Notes under the pieces: generated by a model
Databases searched by the model: none
The model's input: the letters and a program-made list of their open reading frames with translations, nothing else
What the model was told of the DNA's origin: nothing
Made by a program: the position numbers and the translations under genes
Virus record (IMG/VR): IMGVR_UViG_3300005529_000038
Coordinates: 1 to 62,290 of that record
Length of the DNA stretch: 62,290 nt
Source: a virus
Direction: 5' to 3' (one strand)
In this document: positions 10,527 to 34,017 of the stretch, in pieces
Numbering within the stretch: the first letter of the stretch is position 1
Layout: every line of letters starts with the position of its first letter

Positions 10527-10543
10527 TACGTCACGATGGCGCA
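10527..10543 (-). promoter_or_regulatory. Isolated copy of the TACGYC-N5-GRCGTA operator
   Basis: On the minus strand this reads TGCGCCATCGTGACGTA, one of thirteen copies found. It has no leftward gene start beside it and no good -10, unlike the promoter copies. It sits just after the helicase gene, so it could act like a stoperator, or be a decayed promoter. Confidence 0.5.
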
Positions 10544-10615
10544 AAATGGCGCCAAAACAACCATAGGAATTTTTGGCTTAAGTATCTGATCCAGCTGATA
10601 GACGTTGGTTCCAAA

Positions 10616-10637
10616 CAACCTTTTCCAGAAAAGGTTG
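10616..10637. other. Perfect 9-bp hairpin after the helicase gene
   Basis: CAACCTTTT and AAAAGGTTG flank a CCAG loop. No T-tract follows directly on the plus strand. It may be an RNA-processing or attenuation element ahead of the true terminator at 10689. Confidence 0.5.
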
Positions 10638-10673
10638 TCGGGAGCGAGGTTGTTTTATTCCCCGACCGATCAC

Positions 10674-11261
10674 TTAGCGCAATCCGGTGGCCGCCTCTAT
10701 GGCGGCCTTTTTGCACCGTTCCCAGAGCTGGTTGTCGAGCCGGCGGAGCCTGACGGCATCGATCCGGTCGGGCGATCCGGCCGGGTAGTGCCAGGGCGGG
10801 TTATCGCCGAATCGGCGGCGGTACCGGCGCGCCAGGCGTGACCGCCGGCGGCGCCAGGCGGCCGGCGCGAGGCGCCAGTGCTTGCCGCAAATGATCTCGC
10901 TGCAATGGGGGAATTTGGCGCGCGATGCGGTGCGCCGGCAGTAGGGGACGCAGCACGGGATGCGGTCGGTCACAGCTGGGCCCAGCACCGCCAGCAAACA
11001 GCCGCCAGGTTCGCCCGGCGCGCTCGCCCGGTGGACAATCTGATTCGGGCACCATGCGCACGTCACGACGACGTCCGCATCGTCGGCGGGCGGCGGGTCG
11101 CGCGGCTCGCCCACGATGGCACAGATCAGGACGCCTTCGCCCGGATCAAGCTTGGCGATCTCGGCATTGGCCATGACCCGCGCGCGCCGGCGGCCTGGGT
11201 GGTCCGCCGGCCATTCGGCATCGGTGCGGGTGGTGATGGCGGTGATGATGCGCTTGGTCAT
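10674..11261 (-). CDS. Cys-rich zinc-binding-like protein, 195 aa
   Basis: This is the last gene of the leftward small-gene cluster. Cysteine pairs occur as CAWC near residue 68 and CCVPYC near 103. They are followed by HCSEIICGKHWRLAPAAWRR, then a strongly basic stretch and a tail that resembles phage proteins from related hosts. This pattern suggests one or two zinc sites, possibly nucleic-acid binding. ATG overlaps the upstream stop (ATGA). The function is unknown. Confidence 0.7.
   Translation of the reverse strand: MTKRIITAITTRTDAEWPADHPGRRRARVMANAEIAKLDPGEGVLICAIVGEPRDPPPADDADVVVTCAWCPNQIVHRASAPGEPGGCLLAVLGPAVTDRIPCCVPYCRRTASRAKFPHCSEIICGKHWRLAPAAWRRRRSRLARRYRRRFGDNPPWHYPAGSPDRIDAVRLRRLDNQLWERCKKAAIEAATGLR
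10689..10712 (+). terminator. Rho-independent terminator of the early rightward operon
   Basis: GGCCGCC, loop TCTAT, GGCGGCC, then TTTTT. It lies inside the 3' end of the converging leftward gene, whose last codons encode part of the stem. Confidence 0.8.
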
Positions 11262-11530
11262 GCCCGCAACCTTTTCAGGATCGTCGTGGCCATGGCGTCG
11301 CGGAAGGCCGGGCTGGCGGTGTTATCGGCGACCTGGGCGAAGGTCTCGAGCAGCGCGGCCACCGGGCCGCTCGGCCCGTCGCCGTTCTGCCATTTGCGGA
11401 TGGTGTTGGCGCCGTTGCGCTCCGGGTCCTCGAGCCCGCAGAGCTTCGCCATCTCGGCACGCGTGAGCCGGCGGCCGATGGTGGCGATGCCGATCGTGGC
11501 GCGCAGGTCGTTGAGATCATCGCCGTTCAT
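11258..11530 (-). CDS. HTH transcription-regulator-like protein, 90 aa
   Basis: Start at ATG 11530 (MNGDDLNDLRATIGIATIGR); the longer frame upstream is out of frame with the preceding gene. RRLTRAEMAKLCGLEDPERN and NTIRKWQNGDGPSGPVAALL form an XRE-like helix-turn-helix in which the recognition helix is NTIRKWQNG. It is a candidate phage regulator. It overlaps both neighbours by a few bases. Confidence 0.7.
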   Translation of the reverse strand: MNGDDLNDLRATIGIATIGRRLTRAEMAKLCGLEDPERNGANTIRKWQNGDGPSGPVAALLETFAQVADNTASPAFRDAMATTILKRLRA

Positions 11531-11903
11531 GGGTTTCTCTCGCCGTGATGGCGTTGTTGTAGGCCGGCATCGCTTTGCCGGCGAGCGCGCACGAATAGCC
11601 GAATCGCTTGGCGTGATCGCCTCTGCAAAAATACAGGTCTTTGTAGCTGATGCGGTCCCAGACAAAGGCGGTGCGGACGCCGTCGCCACTGTAGACGACG
11701 GTCAGCACCTCATCGGTGCAGAGCCGCCGCACCTCAGCGAGGTTGGCCGGCAGCTTCGCCACTTCGACGATGGTCGGGCTGCCGTCCTCCGCGCGATTCT
11801 TCCACGGCGTCGCGTCGAGCACGAACATGATCATCCTGGAACGCTTGCCGATCGGCTTGCCGCAGTAGCGGCACAGCGGGGGAGCCTGCTTCACGTCGGC
11901 CAT
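11517..11903 (-). CDS. Zinc-ribbon protein, 128 aa
   Basis: An N-terminal CRYCGKPIGKRSRMIMF carries one CxxC, and a possible second ligand pair lies near YFCRGDH around residue 93. Soluble and family unknown. It is the third zinc-ribbon-like product of this cluster, a type common in phages of alphaproteobacteria. Confidence 0.7.
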   Translation of the reverse strand: MADVKQAPPLCRYCGKPIGKRSRMIMFVLDATPWKNRAEDGSPTIVEVAKLPANLAEVRRLCTDEVLTVVYSGDGVRTAFVWDRISYKDLYFCRGDHAKRFGYSCALAGKAMPAYNNAITARETHERR

Positions 11904-12184
11904 CAGTGCCTCTTTGCGCGGATGATGGCGCGGGCCTTGAGCAGGCTATCGAGTTCATGGTGCAGGATCGCGGCGCGCTTGACCGCGAAGCTGTAGCGCT
12001 CGGTCGACATGGTCGGGTAGGGGTCCTCTGGGCGCTGCGCCCGCTCCAAGGTGTGGGCCGCGGACAGCAGCTCGCCGGCGAGGCCGCGATAGATGGCGGC
12101 CACCTCACTGGCGAGCAGCAACACAAGCTGATGATGCGCGACCGCCGCAGGCGGCGGTGCCTTAGGTTTCTTGCGAGGCGTCAC
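11903..12184 (-). CDS. Hypothetical protein with GTG start, 93 aa
   Basis: GTG 12184 is chosen because CAGGAGGAGGGAAGAC lies just upstream; the longer frame is the shadow of the previous gene. The basic N-terminus (VTPRKKPKAPPPAAVAHHQL) is followed by helices (SEVAAIYRGLAGELLSAAHT). The family is unknown. It ends with RAIIRAKRH. Confidence 0.6.
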   Translation of the reverse strand: MTPRKKPKAPPPAAVAHHQLVLLLASEVAAIYRGLAGELLSAAHTLERAQRPEDPYPTMSTERYSFAVKRAAILHHELDSLLKARAIIRAKRH

Positions 12185-12524
12185 GTCTTCCCTCCTCCTG
12201 CTCTCTTTCGAATTCGGCGATCGATTGCCAGCGCCGGCAGAATTCGACCAGCCAGAGGCGCTGTGCATCGGTGAGACGCGGATCGACCAGGTGTTCGTCG
12301 GCCGAGCCGAGCCAGGTGATGCGGTGCTTGAGACCGAAGGTTCGATATTCGATCTCGAGGATGGCATAGGTCAGCGGGTTGGAGCGCGCGTCGCGCATCG
12401 CTTCGTCGAGGTTGACGTAAGCGCGATCCGTGTCGCCGACCTGGATCAGGTCGCCCCAGCGCTGGCTGATGACGTGGCGCAGCTGGTGGCCGGCGATGGC
12501 CGGGTATTCGTTAAGCGATCTCAT
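12162..12524 (-). CDS. Hypothetical protein, 120 aa
   Basis: Start ATG 12524 (MRSLNEYPAIAGHQLRHVIS). This is a soluble protein with a mixed pattern, including QVGDTDRAYVNLDEAMRDAR and YRTFGLKHRITWLGS. It overlaps the next gene by 23 bases and the previous one by 14. The family is not recognised. Confidence 0.65.
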   Translation of the reverse strand: MRSLNEYPAIAGHQLRHVISQRWGDLIQVGDTDRAYVNLDEAMRDARSNPLTYAILEIEYRTFGLKHRITWLGSADEHLVDPRLTDAQRLWLVEFCRRWQSIAEFEREQEEGRRDASQET

Positions 12525-12864
12525 GGGCCTCTCGCTTGCGCGTCTCGAGTCCGCGCGCGTGGCGTTCGGCGCCTTCGACCGACTTGAGCGCACGCTGCAC
12601 ATAGTCGGCCGCCTTGTCGGCGCCGGCCGCGCGCAGATGCGCGCGCGCAGCGCGGATCAGCATCGCCGCCAGCTTGATGTTGTCGGCCTTGGTGCGGTGG
12701 ATGTCTTCAAGCAACTTGACCTTGCCATCGCTTGTCTGGAGGCGTTTGATCTCCGCCAGCGCAAGGTCGGCTTGCGCCGACGGGCTGTCATTGTCTTCGT
12801 CCGGAACGTCGATCTTCAGCGCATCGAGAATGTCGTCGGTGAAGTCGGTACAGCTGTAGGTCAT
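12511..12864 (-). CDS. Hypothetical helical protein, 117 aa
   Basis: Start ATG 12864 (MTYSCTDFTDDILDALKIDV), overlapping the upstream stop. An acidic N-terminal third is followed by long helices (AEIKRLQTSDGKVKLLEDIH; MLIRAARAHLRAAGADKAAD). It is probably a small helical bundle. No motif is assigned. Confidence 0.65.
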   Translation of the reverse strand: MTYSCTDFTDDILDALKIDVPDEDNDSPSAQADLALAEIKRLQTSDGKVKLLEDIHRTKADNIKLAAMLIRAARAHLRAAGADKAADYVQRALKSVEGAERHARGLETRKREAHEIA

Positions 12865-13091
12865 GGCGCCACCCATCCGGTTGGCGAGGCCGGCATGCCG
12901 ATCGCGATGTAACACTCGGTGCAGGCGAAGTGCCCGTTCTCGCGGTTGTAGGTGCCCTCCTCGCGCTTGACGTAGTCGTCAGGCGTCATGCCGAAATCGT
13001 CGGCGGCCTCGATGTATTCCTCGATCTCCGCCGGTCGCTTGCCGCAGTAGGCACAGATCGGTCCTGGTAGCAGTCTCTTGATGTCAGTCAT
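12861..13091 (-). CDS. Small zinc-ribbon protein, 76 aa
   Basis: CAYCGKRPAEIEEYIEAADD near residues 13-32 and CTEC near residue 57 give two CxxC knuckles about 40 residues apart. The central acidic stretch is typical of phage zinc-ribbon proteins of unknown function. It overlaps the next gene by four bases. Confidence 0.7.
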   Translation of the reverse strand: MTDIKRLLPGPICAYCGKRPAEIEEYIEAADDFGMTPDDYVKREEGTYNRENGHFACTECYIAIGMPASPTGWVAP

Positions 13092-13093
13092 GG

Positions 13094-13375
13094 TCAGTCC
13101 TCATACACGTCGAGATCGGTCAGCTGATCCGCGTCGCGATCGAACAGGATGTAATCGGCGCCGTGCTGGCGCGCGTACGTCATGCAGGCGAAGGCGTCGG
13201 ACGGGATGCTGTCGTCGCCGTTCTCTTCATCGCAGTAGAGAAACCAACCGTAGGGCGCCACCCAATGGCTAAGGTTGCCCTGGTCGCTCGAAACGCGCTC
13301 GAGCCATTCACGCGTCGACGGCTTCAGATGCGCGGTCGACAGGTCCATGAAGTTGCGGAGGTTCGGGTGCGTCAT
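13094..13375 (-). CDS. DUF5983-like protein, 93 aa
   Basis: Start ATG 13375 (MTHPNLRNFMDLSTAHLKPS). The LSTAHL opening, the APYGWFLYCDEEN strand, and SDAFACMTYARQHGADYILF followed by DRDAD resemble the DUF5983 family carried by plasmids and phages. Function is unknown; the fold is probably small alpha/beta. The family assignment is by eye. Confidence 0.65.
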   Translation of the reverse strand: MTHPNLRNFMDLSTAHLKPSTREWLERVSSDQGNLSHWVAPYGWFLYCDEENGDDSIPSDAFACMTYARQHGADYILFDRDADQLTDLDVYED

Positions 13376-13737
13376 GCCAGCACCGATGCCATCGCTTCGT
13401 TCATGTCGGAGAAGTAGACGCGCCACTCTTCGCCGCGCCACACCGCGCGATCGTCGGGCGGCATGTGCTCGTCACCGTCGCCGACGACGATGTAGTGTGA
13501 CCACTCGCCGGCGGCGGCAGATGCGGCGTCGACCTTGATCAGCTTTGCGGCTCTTTCCCTGGCGCGCGCTTCAAGCCGCGCCTCGACCTTTTTGCGGTAG
13601 CGGTCGAATTCGGCGAGCGTCCGATCCTCCAGGTAAACCCAATGGTCGACGCCATCGCGCGGCGCGCGCAACTTGAAACCGAAGCCGTCGAACGATGCAT
13701 AAAGGCCGTCGTGCAGGTACTCTTCGCGGTCAGGCAT
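13372..13737 (-). CDS. Hypothetical protein, 121 aa
   Basis: Start ATG 13737 (MPDREEYLHDGLYASFDGFG). The EYLxDGLYASFDGFGFxLRAPR opening is a pattern I associate with a widespread phage/prophage hypothetical family. A basic helix (YRKKVEARLEARARERAAKL) follows. It overlaps the DUF5983-like gene by four bases. Confidence 0.7.
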   Translation of the reverse strand: MPDREEYLHDGLYASFDGFGFKLRAPRDGVDHWVYLEDRTLAEFDRYRKKVEARLEARARERAAKLIKVDAASAAAGEWSHYIVVGDGDEHMPPDDRAVWRGEEWRVYFSDMNEAMASVLA

Positions 13738-13738
13738 T

Positions 13739-13948
13739 TCAGCGCTCCCAGACCATGTTGTCATCCATGTCGAGGACGGCATAGACGCTTTCATCCTTGA
13801 TGTCGTCGCCGGCGCCCCAATCCTCGACCGTGCCATCGCGGAGCATGGCCTCGCCCCTAGCCATCGCAAGTTCCGGCGTGTCAGCCTCGATCATCACAAA
13901 CGCCGTCTCCTCGACGTATTGCTGTACGCACACTTTGAATTTCGGCAT
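13739..13948 (-). CDS. Hypothetical protein, 69 aa
   Basis: Start ATG 13948 (MPKFKVCVQQYVEETAFVMI) with AGAAGGAG upstream. It looks like a beta-alpha-beta protein with an acidic C-terminus. A perfect 8-bp hairpin (13969-13990) lies immediately before the ribosome site. Confidence 0.65.
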   Translation of the reverse strand: MPKFKVCVQQYVEETAFVMIEADTPELAMARGEAMLRDGTVEDWGAGDDIKDESVYAVLDMDDNMVWER

Positions 13949-13968
13949 CTGGTCTCCTTCTGATGTTC

Positions 13969-13990
13969 GGCGCCGCACGATCGCGGCGCC
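13969..13990 (-). promoter_or_regulatory. Leader hairpin before the 69-aa gene
   Basis: GGCGCCGC and GCGGCGCC flank a six-base loop and end about ten bases upstream of AGAAGGAG. It is one of five hairpins found directly upstream of ribosome sites of leftward genes. It may protect the mRNA or tune translation after processing. Confidence 0.55.
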
Positions 13991-14004
13991 GTCTCTGAAG
14001 CCGC

Positions 14005-15078
14005 TTAACCGGCCATCTCCATCACCTTGCTCGCGGCGACGTCGAGCGCGGTCCGATCGGCGGCGTTCGGCATGTCGCGGGCGATCTCGGTCAGGCCGCC
14101 GGCATAGCCCCACACCGAGCGCGGCGAGCCGTACCAATCGACCCGCTGCTCGGCGAGGTCATAGGCCTCGCTTGCGACCTTCCTGGTGATCGCCGACAGC
14201 TTCAGCTTAAAGATCGCGTCGAGGACTTCGTCCTTGCTCGCGCCGATCTCGACCGTGCGCATGCGCTCGATCCGGGCTTCATCGTCGGCGGCCGAGCCCT
14301 CGGCATACTTGGCAACTTCGATCCGCATCTGATCGAAGGCCTTGCTTGCCTGGTCGTTGCCGATGTGGATGACCTTCACCTGCTCGACGTTCTGCATGCC
14401 CCAAATGCGATGGTTGCCGCAGATGTATTCGTACAGGAACGTCCAGAGGTTATAGGAGCCGTCACCGACTTCGCTGTTCGACGTGCAGAAGCCGCGGGAC
14501 AATCCGCCGCCGGGCAGCGTCTCGAAGATGCGCCGTTCGTTGTCGACCAGGAAGGCGAACATATCGCGCTCGCCAAGGTATAGGCCGCGCTTGCCGTCGA
14601 AGGCCGCCGGCGCCGGCTTCCACGTTCCCTCCGCCTCAAGGTCCAGCAACCGCGAGGTGATATCGCTGTTCCAGATCCTGGAGTACTTGCCGGAGGTGAT
14701 CGCCCGCGCTCGCGCAACATTGCCGCTCTTGCCGAACAGCATCATCGCGTCGGCATCTTCGGCGCGCTTATCGAGCCCGTCGTTGATGCACTCCGCCGCC
14801 AGCGGCGCGGGCAGCTGGGCGAGGTAGCCGGCGGGCGCCTTGGCGCGCTCGCAGACCTGCCGGAAAGCCCAATTGCTCATTCCGGCGCCGTCATACTGCG
14901 GCAGGATCAGATCATCGCCCTGGGCCGCGACGCGCAACGCATTGGCCTTGATCTGCTCGACCGTGGCGGTGGTCCGCCACTTCGACGCCGCGGCGTGAAG
15001 CTCGGCGATGCTCTTGAAGCATTCATCGTCCGGCCGACTTGCCCATTGGCGATGGGCGATTTCCATCATGCTCGACAT
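14005..15078 (-). CDS. DUF932-family (phage/plasmid-like) protein, 357 aa
   Basis: The sequence shows the overall layout of DUF932 proteins: the N-terminal FKSIAELHAAASKWR region, QLPAPLAAECINDGL, and RAITSGKYSRIWNSDITSRL. A central beta-rich region (GKRGLYLGERDMFAFLVDNE; GFCTSNSEVGDGSYNLWTFL) and a helical C-terminus follow. Members are encoded by many phages and plasmids and have no settled function. The gene starts at ATG 15078 behind AGGAGAG, with a GGGCC-GTC-GGCCC hairpin at 15100-15112. It is the largest product of this cluster. Confidence 0.75.
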   Translation of the reverse strand: MSSMMEIAHRQWASRPDDECFKSIAELHAAASKWRTTATVEQIKANALRVAAQGDDLILPQYDGAGMSNWAFRQVCERAKAPAGYLAQLPAPLAAECINDGLDKRAEDADAMMLFGKSGNVARARAITSGKYSRIWNSDITSRLLDLEAEGTWKPAPAAFDGKRGLYLGERDMFAFLVDNERRIFETLPGGGLSRGFCTSNSEVGDGSYNLWTFLYEYICGNHRIWGMQNVEQVKVIHIGNDQASKAFDQMRIEVAKYAEGSAADDEARIERMRTVEIGASKDEVLDAIFKLKLSAITRKVASEAYDLAEQRVDWYGSPRSVWGYAGGLTEIARDMPNAADRTALDVAASKVMEMAG

Positions 15079-15224
15079 TCACACTCTCCTGGTTGTGGCG
15101 GGCCGTCGGCCCTCCGGTGAAAAACTCGATTACCCGATCTCGCCTTGGCCGGCGCCAGCACGGGGCGGCGCTTCAGCCAGCTTGCGGCGACCAGCACGCC
15201 GGCGGCAATCCAGATGGCGGTCAT
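15066..15224 (-). CDS. Small single-span membrane peptide, 52 aa
   Basis: ATG 15224 overlaps the stop of the upstream 202-aa gene (ATGA). The first 18 residues (MTAIWIAAGVLVAASWLKRR) form a short hydrophobic span followed by positive charge. The C-terminal part reads through the DUF932 leader hairpin and ends within that gene's first codons. Coupling supports translation, but the tail composition is poor, so the real product may be little more than the membrane span. Confidence 0.4.
   Translation of the reverse strand: MTAIWIAAGVLVAASWLKRRPVLAPAKARSGNRVFHRRADGPPQPGECECRA
15100..15112 (-). promoter_or_regulatory. Leader hairpin before the DUF932 gene
   Basis: GGGCC-GTC-GGCCC, followed on the minus strand by GCCACAACCAGGAGAG. 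It is nearly the same element as at 15851-15863 and 33962-33974. Confidence 0.5.
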
Positions 15225-15829
15225 GCGGCAACTCCGATCGCTGCGGCCTTCGCCGCCAGATTCCGCCGCCTGGTCTCCGCGGCCTTCAGGCCCGCGGCCC
15301 GCCAGTCGACCGGCTTCTTTGCCGGCTTGACGATCGCCGCGACCGCCTTCGCATCCGCCGCCGAAACGGCCTTGGAGAATTCGGGCTCGCTCGACGCGGC
15401 CGCGGCTCGCGCGGCCTTCTCAATCATCGCGGCCCGGTACATCGATTCGACGGCATCGGGCTTCCGCTTGGCCCACGACGCGGCCAGCGCACCCGCCAGC
15501 GCGCGGGAATGCTCGGCCCTGATCCGCGCGCCAACGTCTCGGCAAGGCGCATCAGCGGCGGCCAGACCGGCCTTCCACCAAGCATTGTTTTTGGCGTGGA
15601 TGGCGCGCTCAATCGCGGCCGCATAGGCGTCCCGGTCCGCCCGGGACATGGCGGACACGCTGCCGGCGGCCGCGGCGATCTTGCGGAACTTGGCGACCGA
15701 GGCGCCCATTTCGGGATAGGCCGGGCCAAGCTCGGCATCGAGCGAGCTGCGGCCATCTTCAATCCGCTTCAGCGCAGCTGCCGACAATTCGGCGCGCTCG
15801 CCGCGGGTCATTTTGAGAAGGGAAGCCAT
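15221..15829 (-). CDS. Promoter-proximal gene of the leftward small-gene cluster, 202 aa
   Basis: Alanine-rich helical protein starting MASLLKMTRGERAELSAAAL, with a central AHKN-type segment (AAIERAIHAKNNAWWKAGLA) and a basic C-terminus (RAAGLKAAETRRRNLAAKAA) that could bind nucleic acid. The family is not recognised. It is transcribed from the operator-bearing promoter at 15877-15905 and is followed in the same direction by about thirteen coupled genes down to 10674. Confidence 0.65.
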   Translation of the reverse strand: MASLLKMTRGERAELSAAALKRIEDGRSSLDAELGPAYPEMGASVAKFRKIAAAAGSVSAMSRADRDAYAAAIERAIHAKNNAWWKAGLAAADAPCRDVGARIRAEHSRALAGALAASWAKRKPDAVESMYRAAMIEKAARAAAASSEPEFSKAVSAADAKAVAAIVKPAKKPVDWRAAGLKAAETRRRNLAAKAAAIGVAA

Positions 15830-15876: not shown

Positions 15877-15905
15877 AATATACGACATGGCGACGTAGGA
15901 AGCAA
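15877..15905 (-). promoter_or_regulatory. Leftward promoter with single TACGYC-N5-GRCGTA operator
   Basis: Minus strand: -35 TTGCTT (15905-15900), 17-base spacer, -10 TATATT (15882-15877). The operator TACGTCGCCATGTCGTA (15897-15881) fills the spacer and its last TA is the first TA of the -10. A bound repressor would occlude polymerase. Confidence 0.7.
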
Positions 15906-15933: not shown

Positions 15934-15978
15934 TGTTGCCTGGCGCAACACTGTTTCACGCTTGTTTCATATGAAACA
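15934..15978. promoter_or_regulatory. Two palindromes, one resembling a ParB-binding parS site
   Basis: TGTTGC-CTGGC-GCAACA (15934-15950) is followed by a TGTTTCACG half-site (15952-15960) and the perfect 16-base palindrome TGTTTCATATGAAACA (15963-15978). The chromosomal parS consensus is TGTTTCACGTGAAACA, so 14 of 16 bases match and only the central CG differs. It lies in the divergent region between the 15829 and 16028 genes. It may instead be the operator of a local regulator. Confidence 0.55.
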
Positions 15979-16541: not shown

Positions 16542-16561
16542 GCGGGTCTCCGGTTATGAAA

Positions 16562-16653: not shown

Positions 16654-16906
16654 CATGACGCTTTCGCGCTACGACGTCAAGTCGCAATCCGCGCGCGCGG
16701 CGCGCTGTGCAAAACGCATATCTGTGCGACTCGGTACGAAATTTATGGAAAGCCGAGCCGGTTTCATATCGCAACCACCCGGGGAGTTTTTTTCTACGCC
16801 ATCATGTCGTATAGGTTGTTTCGACCTTAAGCCGCTGGCCGCGCTCGCAAACTGCATCAATCTTTCCACTGTCACAGGAATAGAGGAACACGCCATGGTG
16901 GCGTAA
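16654..16906 (+). CDS. Putative basic small protein, 84 aa
   Basis: It opens with MTLSRYDVKSQSARAARCAK, ten bases after AGGGG. The first 35 residues are basic and credible. The remainder has ordinary composition but no recognisable motif. Base composition is less GC-rich than in neighbours, which may mean recent acquisition or non-coding sequence. An operator copy (16889-16905) overlaps its stop. Confidence 0.3.
16889..16905 (-). promoter_or_regulatory. Isolated operator copy
   Basis: Minus strand TACGCCACCATGGCGTG, a near-perfect palindrome of the phage-wide operator. A weak plus-strand -10 (TAAAAA) follows it, but no -35 is clear. Confidence 0.45.
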
Positions 16907-22902: not shown

Positions 22903-23107
22903 AGCTCGCTCCTCCCCATTGCGTGACGTCGGCCTCCGTGGCCAATCCGGTCAAGGCGTGTGCGAAGTTTGCCGGCGCGATCTCCAGCCGGATCACCACG
23001 CCAGGCTTGTCGGTCCGACGAACCACGATGCAGATCGGTGCGACGTCTTCACCCTCGATGCGCGAGATATTGACCAGCGCCTTGGCGAAGGCCTTCGGCT
23101 TGCTCAT
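22889..23107 (-). CDS. Hypothetical protein, 72 aa
   Basis: MSKPKAFAKALVNISRIEGE leads to strands (CIVVRRTDKPGVVIRLEIAP) and a helix. It is probably a compact alpha/beta domain of unknown role. It starts four bases into the upstream stop region. Confidence 0.6.
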   Translation of the reverse strand: MSKPKAFAKALVNISRIEGEDVAPICIVVRRTDKPGVVIRLEIAPANFAHALTGLATEADVTQWGGASFDNL

Positions 23108-23343
23108 TCCTCGCCACCTTGCTGCGCCTCGAAGCTATCCGCCAGCGAGCGCGCCAGTTTCTTCGCGGCCCTGGCGATCGTATCGATGCCGGCATCAGAT
23201 TGCGCCAGGCCATCGATGCTTGTCATCGCCCAGAAGCCGAGGATGAGCGTGAGCATGGCGCCGACGTCGGCCGGCGAGCGGCCGGCAATCATGTGGTCGA
23301 AATAGGCCTTCGCGGCCGCGATGTGTTTGCTGTCGTCTGACAT
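23104..23343 (-). CDS. Hypothetical protein, 79 aa
   Basis: A helical protein (MSDDSKHIAAAKAYFDHMIA) with one moderately hydrophobic helix (DVGAMLTLILGFWAMTSIDG) that could be buried or membrane-associated. It has an acidic end. The family is unknown. Confidence 0.6.
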   Translation of the reverse strand: MSDDSKHIAAAKAYFDHMIAGRSPADVGAMLTLILGFWAMTSIDGLAQSDAGIDTIARAAKKLARSLADSFEAQQGGEE

Positions 23344-23354
23344 TCGCTCGCTCC

Positions 23355-23684
23355 TCAGAACGGAATGCTGTCGCTGTAGTCGGGGCAGGCGTTCATCGCC
23401 GCGACGTGAGCCACCTTCAGCGCGTCCACCTCTGGCGATGATGGGGCTTTCGCTAGAGCCGCCTCAACCGCCTTGTGCAAGTCCTCCAGCTTCGGCTTGG
23501 CGCGCTCGCGCGCCTGCTCCAGGTGGCGCGCGTGATTGGCGTGGTTGATTGCATCGCGCCGCACTTCATTGCGTTCGCCTTCAGCCACGTTGCAGCGGCG
23601 ATCGGATGCCTCCCTGACCGCGACAAGATCGATGATGCGGTCGACCAGCCGATCGAAAGCATCGGCTCCGGTGAATTCAGACAT
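23355..23684 (-). CDS. Hypothetical helical protein, 109 aa
   Basis: A long central helix (NHARHLEQARERAKPKLEDL) with high charge. It starts MSEFTGADAFDRLVDRIIDL and ends CPDYSDSIPF. It is probably coiled coil. It lies ten bases downstream of the radical SAM gene. Confidence 0.6.
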   Translation of the reverse strand: MSEFTGADAFDRLVDRIIDLVAVREASDRRCNVAEGERNEVRRDAINHANHARHLEQARERAKPKLEDLHKAVEAALAKAPSSPEVDALKVAHVAAMNACPDYSDSIPF

Positions 23685-23693
23685 GGCAACTCC

Positions 23694-24500
23694 TCAGTGA
23701 TGCTGCGGCACGCGCAACGGGTTGTGGTAACCAGGCGGCAAAAATGGCTGCAGGTCTTTCTTGATGTAGTGGGCCTTGCCGAGCGCCTGCAGCTTGTCGA
23801 TCATGCGCAGCGTGTAGTCGCGCCAGTCGAGCACGTTGGTGATCGACGGCACGTAGTTGGCGCGCCCGACCTTGTAGAGATCGACAAAGCCGTGTGTCGC
23901 GTCGACGATCGACAGCGACGACTCGAGATCAAGCGTCGGCTCGAGCGACACCCAGGTGAAGATGCCGCGCTCATGAAACTTGCGCAGCGTCTCGATCCTG
24001 TTCCACGGCAGCGCCGCGTTGCGTTCCCATTTCTCGGAAAACCTGGCGTCGAGCGAGGTCAGCGTCGAGGCGAAGGCGTCGCGATCGGGACGGAACGCAT
24101 AGAGATCCTGCAAGGCCCGATCGCCGCCCTTGGTCAGCGTGCAGAAGCCGAGCCCTGCACCGCGCAAATATTCCAGCGTCGTGCGGGTCAGGTGATTGTC
24201 GCCAGGATGGTACGGGTCCGTCGTGAAACTGAGCATCACTTGCTCGGTGACGCCGAGCTGCTGATACTTGCGGCAATCGGCTGTCAGCCGCTCGATGAAG
24301 TCGGCGCGCGGCACCGCGCCGGCGTCGAATTCCTTGCGGTCCTGCTTGGTCACGCGCGGCACGTAGCAATAGGCACAGCCGTGCCCACATCCGCGGTATG
24401 GATTGCAGGCCAGCGGGGCGTATTCGCCCGCCTGGCCCTTCGGCGCATAGATGATCGTGCAGCCTTTGACGGACACTCCGTCGTCGTTGAGCGTCGGCAT
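23694..24500 (-). CDS. Radical SAM protein of the SPL-like (COG1533) type, 268 aa
   Basis: NPYRGCGHGCAYCYVPRV contains the CX3CX2C cluster (C38, C42, C45) that binds the 4Fe-4S centre and S-adenosylmethionine. LSFTTDPYHPGDNHLTRTTL and FTWVSLEPTLDLESSLSIVD match later strands of the barrel in spore-photoproduct-lyase-like proteins. The start is taken as ATG 24500; the longer frame would read through the promoter. It is promoter-proximal in its unit, so it is probably the key product. The substrate is unknown; a nucleic-acid modification is one possibility. Confidence 0.8.
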   Translation of the reverse strand: MPTLNDDGVSVKGCTIIYAPKGQAGEYAPLACNPYRGCGHGCAYCYVPRVTKQDRKEFDAGAVPRADFIERLTADCRKYQQLGVTEQVMLSFTTDPYHPGDNHLTRTTLEYLRGAGLGFCTLTKGGDRALQDLYAFRPDRDAFASTLTSLDARFSEKWERNAALPWNRIETLRKFHERGIFTWVSLEPTLDLESSLSIVDATHGFVDLYKVGRANYVPSITNVLDWRDYTLRMIDKLQALGKAHYIKKDLQPFLPPGYHNPLRVPQHH

Positions 24501-24528: not shown

Positions 24529-24564
24529 AACATACGTCATCGCGACGTATGACGCTAGGGCGTA
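24529..24564 (-). promoter_or_regulatory. Leftward promoter region with two overlapping operators
   Basis: Minus strand: -10 TATGTT (24534-24529), with operator TACGTCGCGATGACGTA ending on its first TA. A second copy, TACGCCCTAGCGTCATA, overlaps the first by two bases upstream. The -35 (TAGCGT) is weak, so an activator role is as possible as repression. The pair also lies just before the TerS start (24567), so it could govern late rightward transcription too. Confidence 0.6.
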
Positions 24565-29366: not shown

Positions 29367-29558
29367 ATGGCCGACGACAGCACCAACAGCACCGGCATCA
29401 AATCGAAGGCTGGCCCGATTCCTGATGCGGCTTTCGAGAACGATGCGGCCGCGGCGCTCGGCGATCCGCAGTTCAACGCGGAGGGCAAAAAGGCCTTCGA
29501 CGAAAAAACAGCCCGCCTCATCTCTGAGCGGGCTGCGCGGTTGGGTCGATCGACTTAG
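29367..29558 (+). CDS. Small acidic protein directly after the portal-kinase gene, 63 aa
   Basis: Start ATG 29367 (MADDSTNSTGIKSKAGPIPD) with AGGTGA upstream. It ends in a charged helix (FDEKTARLISERAARLGRST). It could be a head accessory, or a partner or inhibitor of the kinase domain because it follows that domain directly. It is not similar by eye to the epsilon antitoxin. It converges with the leftward gene at 29555. Confidence 0.55.
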   Translation: MADDSTNSTGIKSKAGPIPDAAFENDAAAALGDPQFNAEGKKAFDEKTARLISERAARLGRST

Positions 29559-29752
29559 GCTGCCAGGGTCTCCGGCGCCAGTTCACTTTCCGCCTCGCGG
29601 ATCGCCTCCGAGGTGATGACCTCGAAATTGCTGAGTAGCAGGTTGGCTTCCGAAAGAGTCTTGGGCGGGTTGAGCTTGATCGCCTCATTCATCACCGAGA
29701 CGATGTAGAGCAGTTTCTTTGCCGTGGTGATCGGCAACGGCTTGTAGGCCAT
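29555..29752 (-). CDS. Hypothetical helical protein, 65 aa
   Basis: MAYKPLPITTAKKLLYIVSV begins a helical protein with NEAIKLNPPKTLSEANLLLS. It is the only gene of the first inserted leftward unit, read from the double-operator promoter at 29804-29841. AAGGAGG upstream is preceded by a 6-bp hairpin. Confidence 0.65.
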   Translation of the reverse strand: MAYKPLPITTAKKLLYIVSVMNEAIKLNPPKTLSEANLLLSNFEVITSEAIREAESELAPETLAA

Positions 29753-29803: not shown

Positions 29804-29841
29804 AATATATGCCCTGGCGTCGCATACGTCAATATGACGTA
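29804..29841 (-). promoter_or_regulatory. Leftward promoter with two adjoining operators
   Basis: Minus strand: -35 TTGACG (29832-29827), 17-base spacer, -10 TATATT (29809-29804). Operator TACGTCATATTGACGTA (29841-29825) covers the -35. A weaker copy TGCGACGCCAGGGCATA (29824-29808) fills the spacer. The two 17-mers abut exactly. Confidence 0.7.
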
Positions 29842-29873: not shown

Positions 29874-29975
29874 CTAGTGGCGGAAGATCAGGACGTAGCC
29901 CAACGCGATGATCACCACCAATATGGCAAGGTTGGCGAACATCGCATAGGCGAATGGTGTGGGGCGCTTACGCAT
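29874..29975 (-). CDS. Micro-membrane peptide, 33 aa
   Basis: ATG 29975 overlaps the stop of the HTH gene. MRKRPTPFAYAMFANLAILV then VIIALGYVLIFRH is a basic N-terminus with one long membrane helix, giving an N-in topology. It is coupled to the putative regulator, so regulator and membrane peptide are co-expressed. Confidence 0.6.
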   Translation of the reverse strand: MRKRPTPFAYAMFANLAILVVIIALGYVLIFRH

Positions 29976-30180
29976 CGAGCAACTGCTCGGCTGGGATTTG
30001 GTGAATCTCCACAAGCCGCAGCAGCTTGCCGATCGGCTTCGGCACCGGCGAGGTGCCGGAATCGATCCGCTGGCACTGCCGCTTGCTGATGCCGAGATAG
30101 GGCGCGGCGCCGACGATCGACAGGCCAAGCTGCTCGGTGACAATGGAATGGAATTCTTTCCGGGTCAGGGGCTTCGCCAC
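29968..30180 (-). CDS. XRE/Cro-like HTH protein, candidate operator-binding regulator, 70 aa
   Basis: HSIVTEQLGLSIVGAAPYLG and ISKRQCQRIDSGTSPVPKPI form a helix-turn-helix with recognition helix ISKRQCQRI, followed by KLLRLVEIHQIPAEQLLDA. ATG 30180 has TTGAGGAGAC upstream. The gene is read from a promoter bearing two abutting copies of the phage-wide operator, so autoregulation by this protein is the simplest hypothesis for the regulon. Confidence 0.7.
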   Translation of the reverse strand: MAKPLTRKEFHSIVTEQLGLSIVGAAPYLGISKRQCQRIDSGTSPVPKPIGKLLRLVEIHQIPAEQLLDA

Positions 30181-30219: not shown

Positions 30220-30257
30220 TATCTATGACACCATGACGCTTACGTCAATGTGGCGTA
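30220..30257 (-). promoter_or_regulatory. Leftward promoter with two adjoining operators, upstream of the HTH gene
   Basis: Minus strand: -35 TTGACG (30248-30243), 17-base spacer, -10 TAGATA (30225-30220). Operators TACGCCACATTGACGTA (30257-30241) and AGCGTCATGGTGTCATA (30240-30224) abut. The layout equals those at 29804 and 32609. Confidence 0.68.
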
Positions 30258-30258
30258 A

Positions 30259-30483
30259 TCACTTGCCGCGTCTCGACTTGGCGTCACCTCTCCGCGGCTC
30301 GGTCAGGTATTCGCGCGCCTTGCGCAAATTGCGCAGGTACAGCTCGGAATAGACCCACTCCTCGGTCAGCTCCGCCTTGTAGAGCATCCGCGTGTTGCTA
30401 TCGACGCGCACGATCAGCTTGGCGATGGCGCGCGTTGCCTGGCGCCGCAGCTCGCGCATCGAGTCCTTGTCGGTGTTGCTCAT
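30259..30483 (-). CDS. Basic hypothetical protein, 74 aa
   Basis: The last gene of the middle leftward unit. It is basic throughout (MSNTDKDSMRELRRQATRAI; YLRNLRKAREYLTEPRRGDA) with a probable helix-strand-helix layout. ATG overlaps the stop of the 41-aa gene. The family is unknown. Confidence 0.6.
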   Translation of the reverse strand: MSNTDKDSMRELRRQATRAIAKLIVRVDSNTRMLYKAELTEEWVYSELYLRNLRKAREYLTEPRRGDAKSRRGK

Positions 30484-30605
30484 GGCCGCATCCTCGCCCG
30501 CTCCAGCTGCCGCAACTGCTCATCGAGCAGCCTGATCCGCAGCAACAGCAATTCGATGTAGCGGAGCCGCAGCAATTCCGAGCGCGGCAGATTGACATTG
30601 ATCAT
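30480..30605 (-). CDS. Micro-protein, 41 aa
   Basis: MINVNLPRSELLRLRYIELL, then LLRIRLLDEQLRQLERARMR and P. It is a single amphipathic leucine/arginine helix, probably a coiled coil. It is coupled by ATGA overlaps on both sides (start 30605 on the previous stop; stop 30480 on the next ATG). It is too regular to be chance sequence. Confidence 0.6.
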   Translation of the reverse strand: MINVNLPRSELLRLRYIELLLLRIRLLDEQLRQLERARMRP

Positions 30606-30811
30606 GTGTGCGCCTTCGCCGCGATGCATTCGACCTTTTCGAGTTCGATCAGCAGCACGCGTGCCGTCGAGTCGGTGAGCGATATCAACGTGCCGCCGCC
30701 GGCGATCTGGATCGTGCCCTGGTAGTTGCGCAACGTGGTCCAGACGTCGACGATGGTCTGAGGTCCGATCCGCAGGCGGTTCACCGCCGCGTTGAAGTCG
30801 GCCGGCGTCAT
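30602..30811 (-). CDS. Hypothetical protein, 69 aa
   Basis: MTPADFNAAVNRLRIGPQTI, then strands (QGTIQIAGGGTLISLTDSTA) suggest a small beta-rich domain ending in a helix. It overlaps both neighbours by four bases. The family is unknown. Confidence 0.6.
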   Translation of the reverse strand: MTPADFNAAVNRLRIGPQTIVDVWTTLRNYQGTIQIAGGGTLISLTDSTARVLLIELEKVECIAAKAHT

Positions 30812-31086
30812 TCCTCGCCCCTGTCCTTCACGTCGGGGATCGACTCGGCCTCGGCCTCAGCTTGTGTCGCGCCGCGCATCTTGCGCGTGCCGGCAGCCGC
30901 GGCGAGCAGCTGGCTTTCGAGCTTGGCTTTGCCCTTATCGAATTTGCGCACGCCCTTGGGCGACAGCGCGATGCCATCAGGCCGCTTGTGCAGGCCGTTG
31001 TGGACGGCCGAAGTGAGCACGGCGAGCAGTGCAAACCATTCGTCGCCGCGCATGGTGACGGTGACGTTGTCAGTCGAAAAGGCCAT
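30808..31086 (-). CDS. Hypothetical protein, 92 aa
   Basis: MAFSTDNVTVTMRGDEWFAL opens a domain with a central helix (AVLTSAVHNGLHKRPDGIAL) and an acidic C-terminal tail. No motif is recognised. It is coupled to the next gene. Confidence 0.6.
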   Translation of the reverse strand: MAFSTDNVTVTMRGDEWFALLAVLTSAVHNGLHKRPDGIALSPKGVRKFDKGKAKLESQLLAAAAGTRKMRGATQAEAEAESIPDVKDRGEE

Positions 31087-31087
31087 G

Positions 31088-31492
31088 TCAGTCTCCGCTG
31101 TCGATCGTCATGTCGAGGCCGCACTTGGAACAGCGGCCGGGATGCCAGCCGCGCGAGTGATTGGCGCCGGGATCGTCGACCTTGGTGTGCTGGCAGATTG
31201 CGAATTTGAGGCCCGTGGCGGTCGAGCACTGCTTTTCGGCGTTCCACTCCGTCCAGGCCACGATGCCGGAGCCGTAGAGCTGACCGCCCTGGCCGTGGTC
31301 GAGGCAGAAGCTCACATTCCACCTTTTCGATTTGCCTGGCACGACGACAGAGCAGCCGCTGTGCAGCTGGCCATAGTGCAGCAACAGCGCGCCGATATCG
31401 CCCTTGATCGGCTCGGGATTCGGCAGCGGCACGTCACCGCGCATGATCGGCATCAGGTCGCCGTCGAGCGTGTAGACCTTGCGCTCAGCCAT
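31088..31492 (-). CDS. Cys/His-containing hypothetical protein, 134 aa
   Basis: Near the C-terminus HSRGWHPGRCSKCGLDMTID carries a CxxC plus histidines, a possible zinc site. The rest is beta-rich (HYGQLHSGCSVVVPGKSKRW). It starts at ATG 31492, eight bases into the preceding gene. The function is unknown. Confidence 0.6.
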   Translation of the reverse strand: MAERKVYTLDGDLMPIMRGDVPLPNPEPIKGDIGALLLHYGQLHSGCSVVVPGKSKRWNVSFCLDHGQGGQLYGSGIVAWTEWNAEKQCSTATGLKFAICQHTKVDDPGANHSRGWHPGRCSKCGLDMTIDSGD

Positions 31493-31664
31493 GGGCCAGC
31501 TCCCGTTCCATCAGCACGCTTTCGATCTTGTAGGACAGCCGGCCGAGCAAGTAGCCGACATGGATCGACGACGGTGTCGTCTCGCGGATATCGTCGAGCA
31601 GGCTCTTCAGCTCAGCTTTCGAGAGCTTGCGAAGATCCTCTTTGGTCATCGTCATCGGCGTCAT
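31485..31664 (-). CDS. Hypothetical helical protein, 59 aa
   Basis: Start ATG 31664 (MTPMTMTKEDLRKLSKAELK) because GAGGAGGAGAACG lies directly upstream. KEDLRKLSKAELKSLLDDIR and YLLGRLSYKIESVLMERELA form two helices. The family is unknown. Confidence 0.6.
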   Translation of the reverse strand: MTPMTMTKEDLRKLSKAELKSLLDDIRETTPSSIHVGYLLGRLSYKIESVLMERELAHG

Positions 31665-31675
31665 CGTTCTCCTCC

Positions 31676-31888
31676 TCAATAGCCGGCGACGACGTCACCG
31701 GGCTGATACTTGTCGCGATCGATGGGCGTGAACCGAACCGCCATGCCGCTGGCGCTGATCCAGCGGATCGCGTGCTCGCCGTCAAAGCGGTAGTAGTAGC
31801 CAGGCCGATCGTCGGGATCGCGACTGCCGTCATAGCTGCCAGTGATCGTCAGCCTGCGGCCGTTCGATTTAAAGCGCGCGCCGATCAC
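31676..31888 (-). CDS. Hypothetical beta-rich protein with GTG start, 70 aa
   Basis: GTG 31888 overlaps the stop of the 47-aa gene (GTGA). The strands RRLTITGSYDGSRDPDDRPG, YYYRFDGEHAIRWISA and VRFTPI suggest a small beta barrel. No family is recognised. Confidence 0.6.
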   Translation of the reverse strand: MIGARFKSNGRRLTITGSYDGSRDPDDRPGYYYRFDGEHAIRWISASGMAVRFTPIDRDKYQPGDVVAGY

Positions 31889-32028
31889 CGCACCACCTCC
31901 ACCTTGATGATCTCCAGGTGTTCAAACGTCGCGGCCCACCACTCGCGGATCGCGGCCTCGCTCTTGCCGTCGTAGAACGTCGAACGGATGCGATGACCGT
32001 CGGTCCAGAGGATGCGGAAGCGGATCAA
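31885..32028 (-). CDS. Micro-protein with TTG start, 47 aa
   Basis: It reads LIRFRILWTDGHRIRSTFYD (TTG start), then GKSEAAIREWWAATFEHLEI and IKVEVVR. A beta-hairpin then helix then strand fold is likely. The start overlaps the previous stop (TTGA) and its TGA overlaps the next GTG. Such tight coupling on both sides supports translation despite the rare start codon. Confidence 0.55.
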   Translation of the reverse strand: MIRFRILWTDGHRIRSTFYDGKSEAAIREWWAATFEHLEIIKVEVVR

Positions 32029-32213
32029 AGCTCGGACTCCACATCGAACGGCGCCGGCATCTGGCGCCTGATCTTGAAAGCGACGGCGCGCATTCTGACG
32101 GCCATTTCAGGATGAGACGTGGTTGCGGCCTTGCTCAATGCGATGACGATTGTCATCAGCTCGCTGACGTCGAGCGTATCGCCGCCCGGCAGTTCGATCG
32201 GCTTAAACATCAT
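32025..32213 (-). CDS. Hypothetical protein, 62 aa
   Basis: MMFKPIELPGGDTLDVSELM then helices (TIVIALSKAATTSHPEMAVR). Basic C-terminal half. It is coupled to both neighbours by four-base overlaps. The family is unknown. Confidence 0.6.
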   Translation of the reverse strand: MMFKPIELPGGDTLDVSELMTIVIALSKAATTSHPEMAVRMRAVAFKIRRQMPAPFDVESEL

Positions 32214-32422
32214 GCCCTCTCATCTTGCTCGTAGCGCTTGGTGTTCGGGTTGTAGAACATCAGGCCTGGCCGATCGCGCATGAACTTCTGGAGATCGGCA
32301 GAGGCTTGCGGCGTCGAGACTTCGAACATCCGTTCAAGATGCCCGCGATTGATGAAGCCATAGACGCGCAGCATCTGCGCAATCCATTCCTGGCGGTGAC
32401 GTGCAAACCAGCGATCAGACAT
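32210..32422 (-). CDS. Winged-helix DNA-binding-like protein, 70 aa
   Basis: Start ATG 32422 (MSDRWFARHRQEWIAQMLRV). YGFINRGHLERMFEVSTPQA then SADLQKFMRDRPGLMFYNPN is the pattern of the N-terminal winged helix seen in WYL-type and other phage regulators, with STPQASADLQKF as recognition helix. No effector domain is present. It may be a second regulator of the inserted units. Confidence 0.65.
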   Translation of the reverse strand: MSDRWFARHRQEWIAQMLRVYGFINRGHLERMFEVSTPQASADLQKFMRDRPGLMFYNPNTKRYEQDERA

Positions 32423-32591
32423 CGGGACAGCTCCAGCCCTCGCGATAGAAGATTTGGACCCAGCCGTCGGCGAGGTCGCGCCAGCCGTCGATCCAGATGA
32501 ACTTGCCGCGCCAGTTGCGACGCTGGCCGACGCGTTCGACCCAGATGGCGGCATCGGCGGCGGGAATGGTGAAACTCTGGCGGGTTGACAT
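32415..32591 (-). CDS. Promoter-proximal protein of the middle unit, 58 aa
   Basis: ATG 32591 has GAGG seven bases upstream. It reads MSTRQSFTIPAADAAIWVER, then VGQRRNWRGKFIWIDGWRDL and ADGWVQIFYREGWSCPDV, a tryptophan-rich mixed protein. Its stop overlaps the winged-helix gene start by eight bases. The function is unknown. Confidence 0.6.
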   Translation of the reverse strand: MSTRQSFTIPAADAAIWVERVGQRRNWRGKFIWIDGWRDLADGWVQIFYREGWSCPDV

Positions 32592-32608
32592 GTTGGAACC
32601 TCACAATC

Positions 32609-32646
32609 AATGTACGTCACGATGGCGCTTGCGTCAAGGTGACGTA
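32609..32646 (-). promoter_or_regulatory. Leftward promoter with two adjoining operators
   Basis: Minus strand: -35 TTGACG (32637-32632), 17-base spacer, -10 TACATT (32614-32609). Operators TACGTCACCTTGACGCA (32646-32630) and AGCGCCATCGTGACGTA (32629-32613) abut. The region overlaps the 3' end of the upstream leftward gene. Confidence 0.7.
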
Positions 32647-32837
32647 ATGGGCCTGGCGCGGCGGCGATTGAGCGCCGCCAGTGAGCGCGCGTTGTGGCAG
32701 ACCTTGCAGGTGCTCTGCCGCCACGGATAGCCGTTGGCCACGCGATAGAATTCGGTCTCCGGCTTTTCGACCTGGCACATCCGGCAGACCTTGCGCGGCG
32801 TGTCCGCGGTGGCGATCTCAGGTTTCGTGCATTTCAT
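32634..32837 (-). CDS. Zinc-knuckle protein, 67 aa
   Basis: RKVCRMCQVEKPETEFYRVA and TCKVCHNARSLAAL give two CxxC pairs about 24 residues apart, the layout of the N-terminal zinc site of phage endonuclease-VII-like or HNH-associated ribbons. No HNH residues follow. The basic C-terminus ends NRRRARPITSP. The last gene of the upstream unit. Confidence 0.6.
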   Translation of the reverse strand: MKCTKPEIATADTPRKVCRMCQVEKPETEFYRVANGYPWRQSTCKVCHNARSLAALNRRRARPITSP

Positions 32838-32916
32838 CGTCGAGCACCATCAGGAAGGCCAGCAACGAAACTTCGTGGAAGATCAGCCAGAGCATCACGG
32901 CATCGTAGAGCGTCAC
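32818..32916 (-). CDS. Micro-membrane peptide with GTG start, 32 aa
   Basis: It reads VTLYDAVMLWLIFHEVSLLA (GTG start) then FLMVLDDEMHET, one hydrophobic helix with an acidic end. GTG 32916 overlaps the previous stop (GTGA), and it overlaps the zinc-knuckle start by 20 bases. Together with the 33-aa peptide at 29874 it suggests each inserted unit may carry a membrane peptide. Confidence 0.5.
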   Translation of the reverse strand: MTLYDAVMLWLIFHEVSLLAFLMVLDDEMHET

Positions 32917-33272
32917 GGCTGCTCTCCGAGCAGCGCGCGCATCTCCGGGGTCAGCTCGCCCTGGTCGTCGAAAACGGCGATCGGATCGAAGCTGTCATCG
33001 CCGTCGCGCTCCGCGTACAGCGGCCACGGCCGCCGGCTGTTGAGCGGCCTTGTCAGCGTGTAGGAATGCCGGCCGATCTCCAGCGGCAAATTGTAGACGA
33101 AGATCGCGCCATCGCTCTCGCGCTGCATGATCTCGAATCGCGGCACGTCTTCATTGCGAAAGCGCGCCTCGCAGCCGGCCAGCCGCTCCATCGCGATGTA
33201 AAGCTGGCCGTAGCACTTGAGCAGGTTGGCCTCGTTGAAGAGGTCGCGGGGGATCACGCGGCGATAGGTCAT
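32913..33272 (-). CDS. Hypothetical protein, 119 aa
   Basis: Start ATG 33272 (MTYRRVIPRDLFNEANLLKC). A helical first half (YGQLYIAMERLAGCEARFRN) is followed by strands (SDGAIFVYNLPLEIGRHSYT) and an acidic end. The family is unrecognised. ATG overlaps the upstream stop. Confidence 0.6.
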   Translation of the reverse strand: MTYRRVIPRDLFNEANLLKCYGQLYIAMERLAGCEARFRNEDVPRFEIMQRESDGAIFVYNLPLEIGRHSYTLTRPLNSRRPWPLYAERDGDDSFDPIAVFDDQGELTPEMRALLGEQP

Positions 33273-33565
33273 TGCTTCAACTCCGGTCCAAAGACATGAC
33301 AGGGTTTGTCGGCGCCGTTCTGCTTGCGGTACCACTCAGGCGGATTGCTGGGCTGAACGATGACGCCGAGGAAACCGCACTCCTCGAAATAGGCGAGCAC
33401 CTTGCCCGGGCCGATCTGGTTGACGCCGACGATGACGTCGGCGCCGATCGCGGGCGGAGGTTGCTTGCCGCCCCACTTCATCGGGTCGTCGCGGTTGACG
33501 ATCTGATCGCCGCTCCAGATCAGTTGCTGCCATTCCGGCAGAGCGTCGAGCTTACGAATTGCCAT
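33269..33565 (-). CDS. Hypothetical protein, 98 aa
   Basis: Start ATG 33565 (MAIRKLDALPEWQQLIWSGD). The central strands (ADVIVGVNQIGPGKVLAYFE; CGFLGVIVQPSNPPEWYRKQ) suggest an SH3-like barrel of the kind many small phage proteins have. It overlaps the upstream gene by 14 bases. Confidence 0.6.
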   Translation of the reverse strand: MAIRKLDALPEWQQLIWSGDQIVNRDDPMKWGGKQPPPAIGADVIVGVNQIGPGKVLAYFEECGFLGVIVQPSNPPEWYRKQNGADKPCHVFGPELKQ

Positions 33566-33698
33566 TGTCCGACTCCTTCCGTTCGATCTCCCAGGCTGGC
33601 GGGGGAGGCGGCGGCGCGTACAGACCGCGCGCCGCTTCGTTCTGGCGGTCGCGCTCCTCGCGCTGCCGCTCAAGGTCCCAGATTATCCAAGGCTTCAC
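33552..33698 (-). CDS. Small proline-rich protein with GTG start, 48 aa
   Basis: GTG 33698 (VKPWIIWDLERQREERDRQN) is chosen because AGGAGG lies eight bases upstream. A charged helix is followed by LYAPPPPPPAWEIERKESDN. It resembles short scaffolding or binding peptides. The function is unknown. Confidence 0.55.
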   Translation of the reverse strand: MKPWIIWDLERQREERDRQNEAARGLYAPPPPPPAWEIERKESDNGNS

Positions 33699-33711
33699 GA
33701 TGGTCACCTCC

Positions 33712-33942
33712 TCACTTCGTCCAGCCGGACAGCGCGATCTCCTCCGCCCCAAACACCAGGGACAGGCCGCAATCGTCGCAGGGATAGCGCCGAGCATCCG
33801 GCTCACAGGCATCCTTGCTGGCGCCGCACGCGACGCAGAAGCCCATGTTTTCGTCGGCCGCGCGCTCAAGGCGCTCAACCGAGAAGCGCTTGGGAATGAT
33901 CTTGCCCGACGCGCTGCGCTTGATCTTTAGGGAAGTCGTCAC
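33712..33942 (-). CDS. Zinc-ribbon protein, 76 aa
   Basis: GTG 33942 has AGGAGG six bases upstream. SLKIKRSASGKIIPKRFSVE then GFCVACGASKDACEPDARRY and PCDDCGLSLVFGAEEI give a two-CxxC ribbon. The opening has a characteristic basic N-terminus that I have seen in phage zinc-ribbon proteins of related hosts. It is promoter-proximal in its unit, read from 33989-34017. Confidence 0.7.
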   Translation of the reverse strand: MTTSLKIKRSASGKIIPKRFSVERLERAADENMGFCVACGASKDACEPDARRYPCDDCGLSLVFGAEEIALSGWTK

Positions 33943-33961
33943 CGTTTTCCTCCTCAATGGC

Positions 33962-33974
33962 GGGCCGATGGCCC
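33962..33974 (-). promoter_or_regulatory. Leader hairpin before the zinc-ribbon gene
   Basis: GGGCC-ATC-GGCCC on the minus strand followed by GCCATTGAGGAGG. The thirteen bases are identical to those at 15851-15863, in front of a different promoter of the same class. Confidence 0.55.
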
Positions 33975-33988
33975 TTCGGGACACCATC

Positions 33989-34017
33989 AATATACGCCAT
34001 AGTGACGTAGCACGCAA
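33989..34017 (-). promoter_or_regulatory. Leftward promoter with single operator
   Basis: Minus strand: -35 TTGCGT (34017-34012), 17-base spacer, -10 TATATT (33994-33989). Operator TACGTCACTATGGCGTA (34009-33993) fills the spacer and shares its final TA with the -10. It is nearly the same as the promoter at 15877-15905. Confidence 0.7.

Follow-up and report, generated by a model that had tools for sequence, protein, structure and literature searches.

A candidate Aca10-like repressor and its predicted operators in six leftward promoters of a virus genome

Results

The window analysed here, the virus genome of record IMGVR_UViG_3300005529_000038 (62,290 bases, 64% GC), encodes packaging, head, tail, RecE-like recombination and replication genes, and its last gene runs past the end of the record, which is possibly incomplete. 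We describe a 17-bp palindrome, TACGYCA-N3-TGRCGTA, that recurs in six leftward promoters of this genome, and a small helix-turn-helix (HTH) protein, g53, that is most likely its cognate regulator. An original prediction had listed thirteen copies of the form TACGYC-N5-GRCGTA, which has 4 exact sites and, with at most two mismatches, 20 sites against 5.9 +/- 2.2 in shuffled sequence (shuffle maximum 11). Scored as matches out of the 14 defined letters of the refined palindrome, the whole genome holds three sites at 14/14, five at 13/14 and four at 12/14, where Markov models of order 1-3 expect 0, 0 and ~0.3, respectively; that is, 12 sites at 12/14 or better against ~0.3 and 8 at 13/14 or better against 0. 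Alphaproteobacterial control DNA (1.31 Mb around homologous terminases) yielded 0.43 sites of at least 12/14 per 62 kb and none above 12, and in six whole rhizobial or host-type genomes the count did not exceed that of a reversed control pattern. The enrichment over chance and control DNA is real, but the figure of thirteen mixes promoter sites with intragenic and noncoding ones. Sites inside genes (13176, 42806, 11059 and 13902) are probably chance occurrences, and four noncoding sites lie outside the six promoters (10527, 16795, 16889 and 17404). One of these, a 13/14 match at 10527..10543, sits between convergent gene ends without a promoter; two more, 13/14 each, fall within 16795..16905 in a noncoding stretch, beside the inverted repeat CCGGGGAGTTTTT/AAAAACTCCCCGG. 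When palindromes were clustered de novo, chance ones rich in GC dominated the outcome, and neither a megablast search of named phages with this region nor Rfam returned a match.

The six operator-bearing promoters all face leftward and are spread over three separate regions, as had been claimed. At four of them, the last TA of a well-matched operator is the first TA of the -10. P33989 (TTGCGT-17-TATATT) carries a 14/14 operator in its spacer (33993..34009, minus strand), P24529 (TAGCGT-17-TATGTT) a 13/14 operator in its spacer (24533..24549, minus strand) and P15877 (TTGCTT-17-TATATT) a 12/14 operator in its spacer (15881..15897, minus strand), while P32609 (TTGACG-17-TACATT) has two abutting operators (32613..32646, minus strand; 12/14 and 13/14), the TTGACG lying within the upstream one and the TACATT beginning with the last TA of the downstream one. 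This geometry had been extended to all six promoters, but at P29804 (TTGACG-17-TATATT) and P30220 (TTGACG-17-TAGATA) the 14/14 operators (29825..29841 and 30241..30257, both minus strand) lie one 17-bp step upstream, over the -35. At these two promoters and at P32609, a well-matched operator spans the -35 and its right half provides the TTGACG. An abutting second copy had been assigned to the same three promoters; P32609 does have two good operators, whereas the proximal copies at the other two are degenerate. The copy at 29808-29824 scores 9/14 by hand count, a level at which ~240 chance occurrences per genome are expected, and the copy at 30224-30240, which ends on the -10 TAGATA, scores 10/14 (~40 chance occurrences), so neither was counted alone. 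Likewise, the copy reported to overlap by two bases exists at P24529 (24548-24564), but is a weak match. P29804 and P32609 are among the few intergenic sigma70-like promoters with at least 9/12 matches. Hairpins occur at the predicted transcript 5' ends downstream of P33989, P15877 and P29804 (GGGCCATCGGCCC; GCGGGATGGTCCCGC) and may protect the mRNA 5' ends.

P15877 drives the unit g27-g16 (10674..15829, minus strand), 12 genes of which those scanned mostly lack a family match, g26 being related to DUF932/phrog_1362. P24529, in the divergent region g46/g47, precedes g46-g41 (21867..24500, minus strand), the first gene of which encodes a radical-SAM protein (phrog_13321). P33989 drives g70-g54 (30259..33942, minus strand), which encodes short proteins, mostly of 30-140 amino acids, and those tested had no confident family match. 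P29804 drives g51 (29555..29752, minus strand; 65 amino acids). PADLOC found no match among ten proteins. The short open reading frames (ORFs) behind operators are possibly early, counter-defence genes. The radical-SAM protein itself (23694-24500) is 64-75% identical in five relatives (L005, L006, L008, L009 and L010).

P30220 is the promoter of g53 (29968..30180, minus strand), so that this 70-amino-acid Aca10/Aca2-like protein sits behind an operator-bearing promoter of its own. Four HTH candidates had been put forward, at 29968, 32210, 11258 and 8268, and the first, g53, is the one that we single out. Curated Pfam and NCBIfam models gave only weak HTH, MqsA and VC1465 matches, while a profile of the g53 family searched against PDB matched MbcA, Aca10 (7XI5, E 2.2e-4), Aca2, HigA2-like proteins and MqsA. 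The AlphaFold2 model of g53 has a pLDDT (predicted local distance difference test) of 89, and in a fold search with this model Aca2 ranked first, with Aca10 at a template modelling (TM) score of 0.78 on target length and a root mean square deviation of 1.8. In the recognition helix, S-K-R34-Q-C-Q37-R, R34 and Q37 match DNA-reading residues of Aca10 in both numbering and position; Aca10 Q22 is I in g53.

Conservation was followed in L005, L006 and L007, related phage contigs with a terminase 78% identical, all of them partial. In all three an operator (12-13/14) persists between g46 and g47, in the same position as P24529, and g51 is kept in L005 (74%) and L007, in each case behind an operator-promoter. 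Compared with L005, P29804 has kept the distal operator, the TTGACG, the TATATT and the leader hairpin GCGGGATGGTCCCGC, but not the proximal copy. A 12/14 operator with TTGACC-17-TATTTC lies upstream of g53 in L005, and L007 has TTGACA-17-TATCAT around a 12/14 operator. Every relative that bears the operator and extends far enough also has a g53 homologue, at 47% identity in L005, 50% in L007 and 28% in L011. Alongside its diverged homologue, L011 carries the variant palindrome TACGCAA-N3-TTGCGTA three times without mismatch, and two of these copies repeat the promoter geometry described above. A search of viral contigs for the operator followed by TATRTT returned six loci, of which the GC-rich L088 and L089 are one phage type. 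L088 represents an otherwise unrelated phage that has in common with the present genome (E<=1e-3) just the terminase, at 38% identity to g48, and two g53 homologues. Its operators, at 6086/6103 (an abutting pair immediately ahead of one HTH gene), 9017, 9476 and 11447, lie in promoters of the form TTGACA or TTGCGC, 16-17 bp, then TATATA, TATATT, TATGTA or TATATG. Among 98 viral loci, at least two near-perfect TACG-N9-CGTA palindromes occurred only in the present genome, L005, L011 and L088/L089 (plus duplicate fetches), L088 having been fetched by the operator motif itself. Operators within a core promoter, with the TA shared with the -10, are thus seen in four promoters here and in L005, L006, L007, L088 and L011. 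Single matches in the low-GC contigs L085-L087 and L090 were set aside as probably chance (about ten expected by our own estimate). The motif is absent from Brevundimonas phage Strzyga and from Bradyrhizobium phage ppBeUSDA76-2, despite a distant g53 homologue in the latter. As queries of viral contigs, g53 alone or with two close homologues gave few matches; a family profile searched against 199 genomes gave HTH matches, mostly weak, in 47, and the best five loci from that search (3 kb each) had no operator near.

The association of operator and HTH family was also approached from the promoter side. Viral contigs were searched for TTGACA-N1/2-TACG-N9-CGTATANT, with neither a palindrome nor a protein required, which returned 117 stretches. 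Of 17 distinct HTH genes of the family, 15 followed the promoter in the same orientation (binomial p ~7e-8 against one quarter), most same-strand genes at 0.4-1.5 kb from it, and 14 of the 15 downstream genes encode R34-x-x-Q37 as in Aca10 and g53. The exception, L218, lies beside a non-palindromic site. At L099 an operator site is present despite S at position 37, and several loci carry the Aca10 half-site CTC. One further locus, L281, has operators of the TACG frame at 8187 and 10362, each upstream of a different HTH gene of the family, an arrangement that suggests tandem paralogous circuits in one phage.

Discussion

Taken together, these observations make it likely, in our judgement, that a small Aca10-like repressor, most probably g53, shuts six promoters through one palindrome as a single regulon. 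The closest precedent is Aca10 of Pseudomonas citronellolis (PDB 7XI5), whose binding to ATACGCTCATTGAGCGTAT, set within TTGCAA-N16-TATTCT, has been demonstrated (PMC9410881). The Aca10 operator and the one described here share a 17-bp frame, TACGNNN-N3-NNNCGTA, fill the spacer and share a TA with the -10; Aca10, like g53, is a small HTH protein with R34 and Q37 in its recognition helix, encoded downstream of its operator. They differ in the inner half-site, CTC for Aca10 and YCA here, and in reach, Aca10 serving one acr operon where we find six promoters and no known acr gene among the ten proteins given to PADLOC. Judged by its letters, the palindrome is a specificity variant of the Aca10-type operator; the motif had been thought undescribed, a view that does not survive this family-level match and its identical promoter geometry (PMC9410881). 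Neither the exact half-site TACGYCA nor multi-operon use was found in the papers searched, and one Aca10-type repressor acting on six promoters looks new, within a motif family already described. Aca2 of Pectobacterium phage ZF40, which ranked first in the fold search with g53, likewise represses both its own gene and anti-CRISPR genes through a promoter that contains palindromes (PMC9410881, PMC9410906), but is larger, has an extra dimerisation domain (PMC8434428) and reads another operator sequence. The HigA2 and MqsA antitoxins, whose C-terminal HTH has the same fold and which are among the Foldseek and profile matches of g53, differ in that no toxin partner was identified beside g53.

In the mechanism that we propose, the palindromes would be dimer operators of g53, with TACGTCAATATGACGTA as the predicted g53 target DNA. 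After DNA entry, the host sigma70 polymerase would use the leftward promoters, whose -35 and -10 elements are interleaved with operators, and the accessory leftward genes and g53 would be produced early. Dimers of g53 would then fill the operators, exclude RNA polymerase and silence all six promoters, including that of g53; the acr-aca negative feedback loop would thereby extend beyond one operon and govern a whole regulon.

Several observations weigh against this assignment. A single-sequence search of PDB with g53 gave no match: it took the family profile or a fold comparison to reveal the similarity to Aca10. The Foldseek E-values for the model were all above 0.001. Aca10 R44, the most critical residue there, is S44 in g53. 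Distant homologues with an RTSRRW helix mostly lack an obvious operator of the TACG type, so that a protein's place in the family is not enough to predict the site. The L007 contig ends just upstream of g53 and L006 ends before it. Several 13/14 sites (10527, 16795 and 16889) lie outside promoters, and a geometry test over all sites gave a modest P of ~0.01, its null containing the sites themselves.

Another phage protein could instead be the cognate repressor, for example the XRE-like g17 (11258-11530) or a regulator that escaped recognition, which we regard as unlikely. The g17 gene lies within the regulon and its product appears HTH-like by eye, and, with only parts of the related genomes covered by the contigs, further shared genes may go unseen; yet L009 has a g17 homologue (34%) with a single 12/14 site, inside the terminase gene, and g53 is the sole DNA-binding candidate common to this genome, L005, L007 and L088. 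Slightly less probable still is that the sites serve a CI-like lysogeny repressor or act as stoperators, silencing a prophage through many local blocks to, or terminations of, transcription. Dispersed sites, some of them outside promoters, would fit such a role, as they would the comparison with P1 C1, one phage repressor with 22 dispersed operators (PMC8546580), or with the stoperators of Cluster A mycobacteriophages, present in many copies per genome (PMC9283540), and the ParB-like g36 (19098-19685) could suit a plasmid-like prophage. The P1 operators, however, are asymmetric and serve lysogeny, and the Cluster A stoperators are asymmetric and terminate elongation, whereas the sites described here are symmetric and concentrated in the core promoters of accessory leftward units, no operator-promoter of the leftward type being found before replication or structural genes. 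The lack of any match to a tyrosine or serine integrase (PF00589, PF00239) or to an S24 repressor (PF00717) is a further argument against a lysogeny switch, although the record, whose last gene runs off its end, may be incomplete.

An activator bound in the spacer might compensate for weak -35s and give delayed early promoters, as the poor -35s of three promoters (TTGCGT, TTGCTT and TAGCGT) would allow; we think this very unlikely, since the spacing is a normal 16-17 bp and the operators cover the spacer and the edge of the -10, as they do in repression by Aca10, and the same operators accompany strong TTGACA -35s in L007 and L088. Least credible to us is an SOS-like host transcription factor, given that neither rhizobial genomes nor prophage-bearing host DNA, a sample that need not include the true host, are enriched for the sites. 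The analogies first drawn to stoperators and to an SOS-like network therefore find no support, the former on the symmetry and core-promoter position of the sites, the latter on the lack of host-genome enrichment and of any S24/LexA-type repressor among our matches.

The Aca10-type repressor explains the motif without the invention of a new system, and provides a sequence rule that pairs operator with repressor and nominates short ORFs as early, possibly counter-defence, genes. More tentatively, and with rather less than even confidence, we suggest that such a repressor has been turned into a phage-wide early shut-off switch, its operator tagging scattered counter-defence operons. If so, scanning phages for the TACG...CGTA frame together with an R-x-x-Q helix would yield a list of new anti-defence genes, some of them unrelated to CRISPR. 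As Aca repressors were described for single acr operons, control of six promoters by one of them would demonstrate that such a circuit can grow into a regulon.

One regulator had been proposed for all accessory leftward units, and while the regulon itself is supported, the leftward recombination operon (0.3-5.8 kb) lacks the TACGYCA operator. Its promoter, TTGACT-18-TATCGT (5902-5873; intergenic, sigma70-like, at least 9/12), carries another palindrome between -35 and -10, and the regulon therefore does not cover all leftward units. This palindrome, TGGGNAATTNCCCA, occurs in the genome only at 5883 and 5961, a pair that separates the divergent genes g8 (leftward) and g9 (rightward), in the region 5873-5974. 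The genome thus probably has two operator systems, and the arrangement suggests that a second repressor, perhaps g9 (79 amino acids), acts on the TGGGNAATTNCCCA pair.

Three further features deserve mention. The stretch 16465-17494, ~1 kb without convincing genes, holds operator-like sites and the inverted repeat, adjoins a tRNA-Gly (16380-16465) and has an RNA fold z-score of -3.1. A perfect palindrome, TGTTTCATATGAAACA, lies at 15963-15978 in this genome, which encodes the ParB-N-like g36; it differs at two centre bases from the chromosomal parS consensus. Finally, 6355-6852 encodes a GcrA-like protein that matches Pfam GcrA with E 3.5e-17 and is homologous to an alphaproteobacterial cell-cycle transcription regulator.

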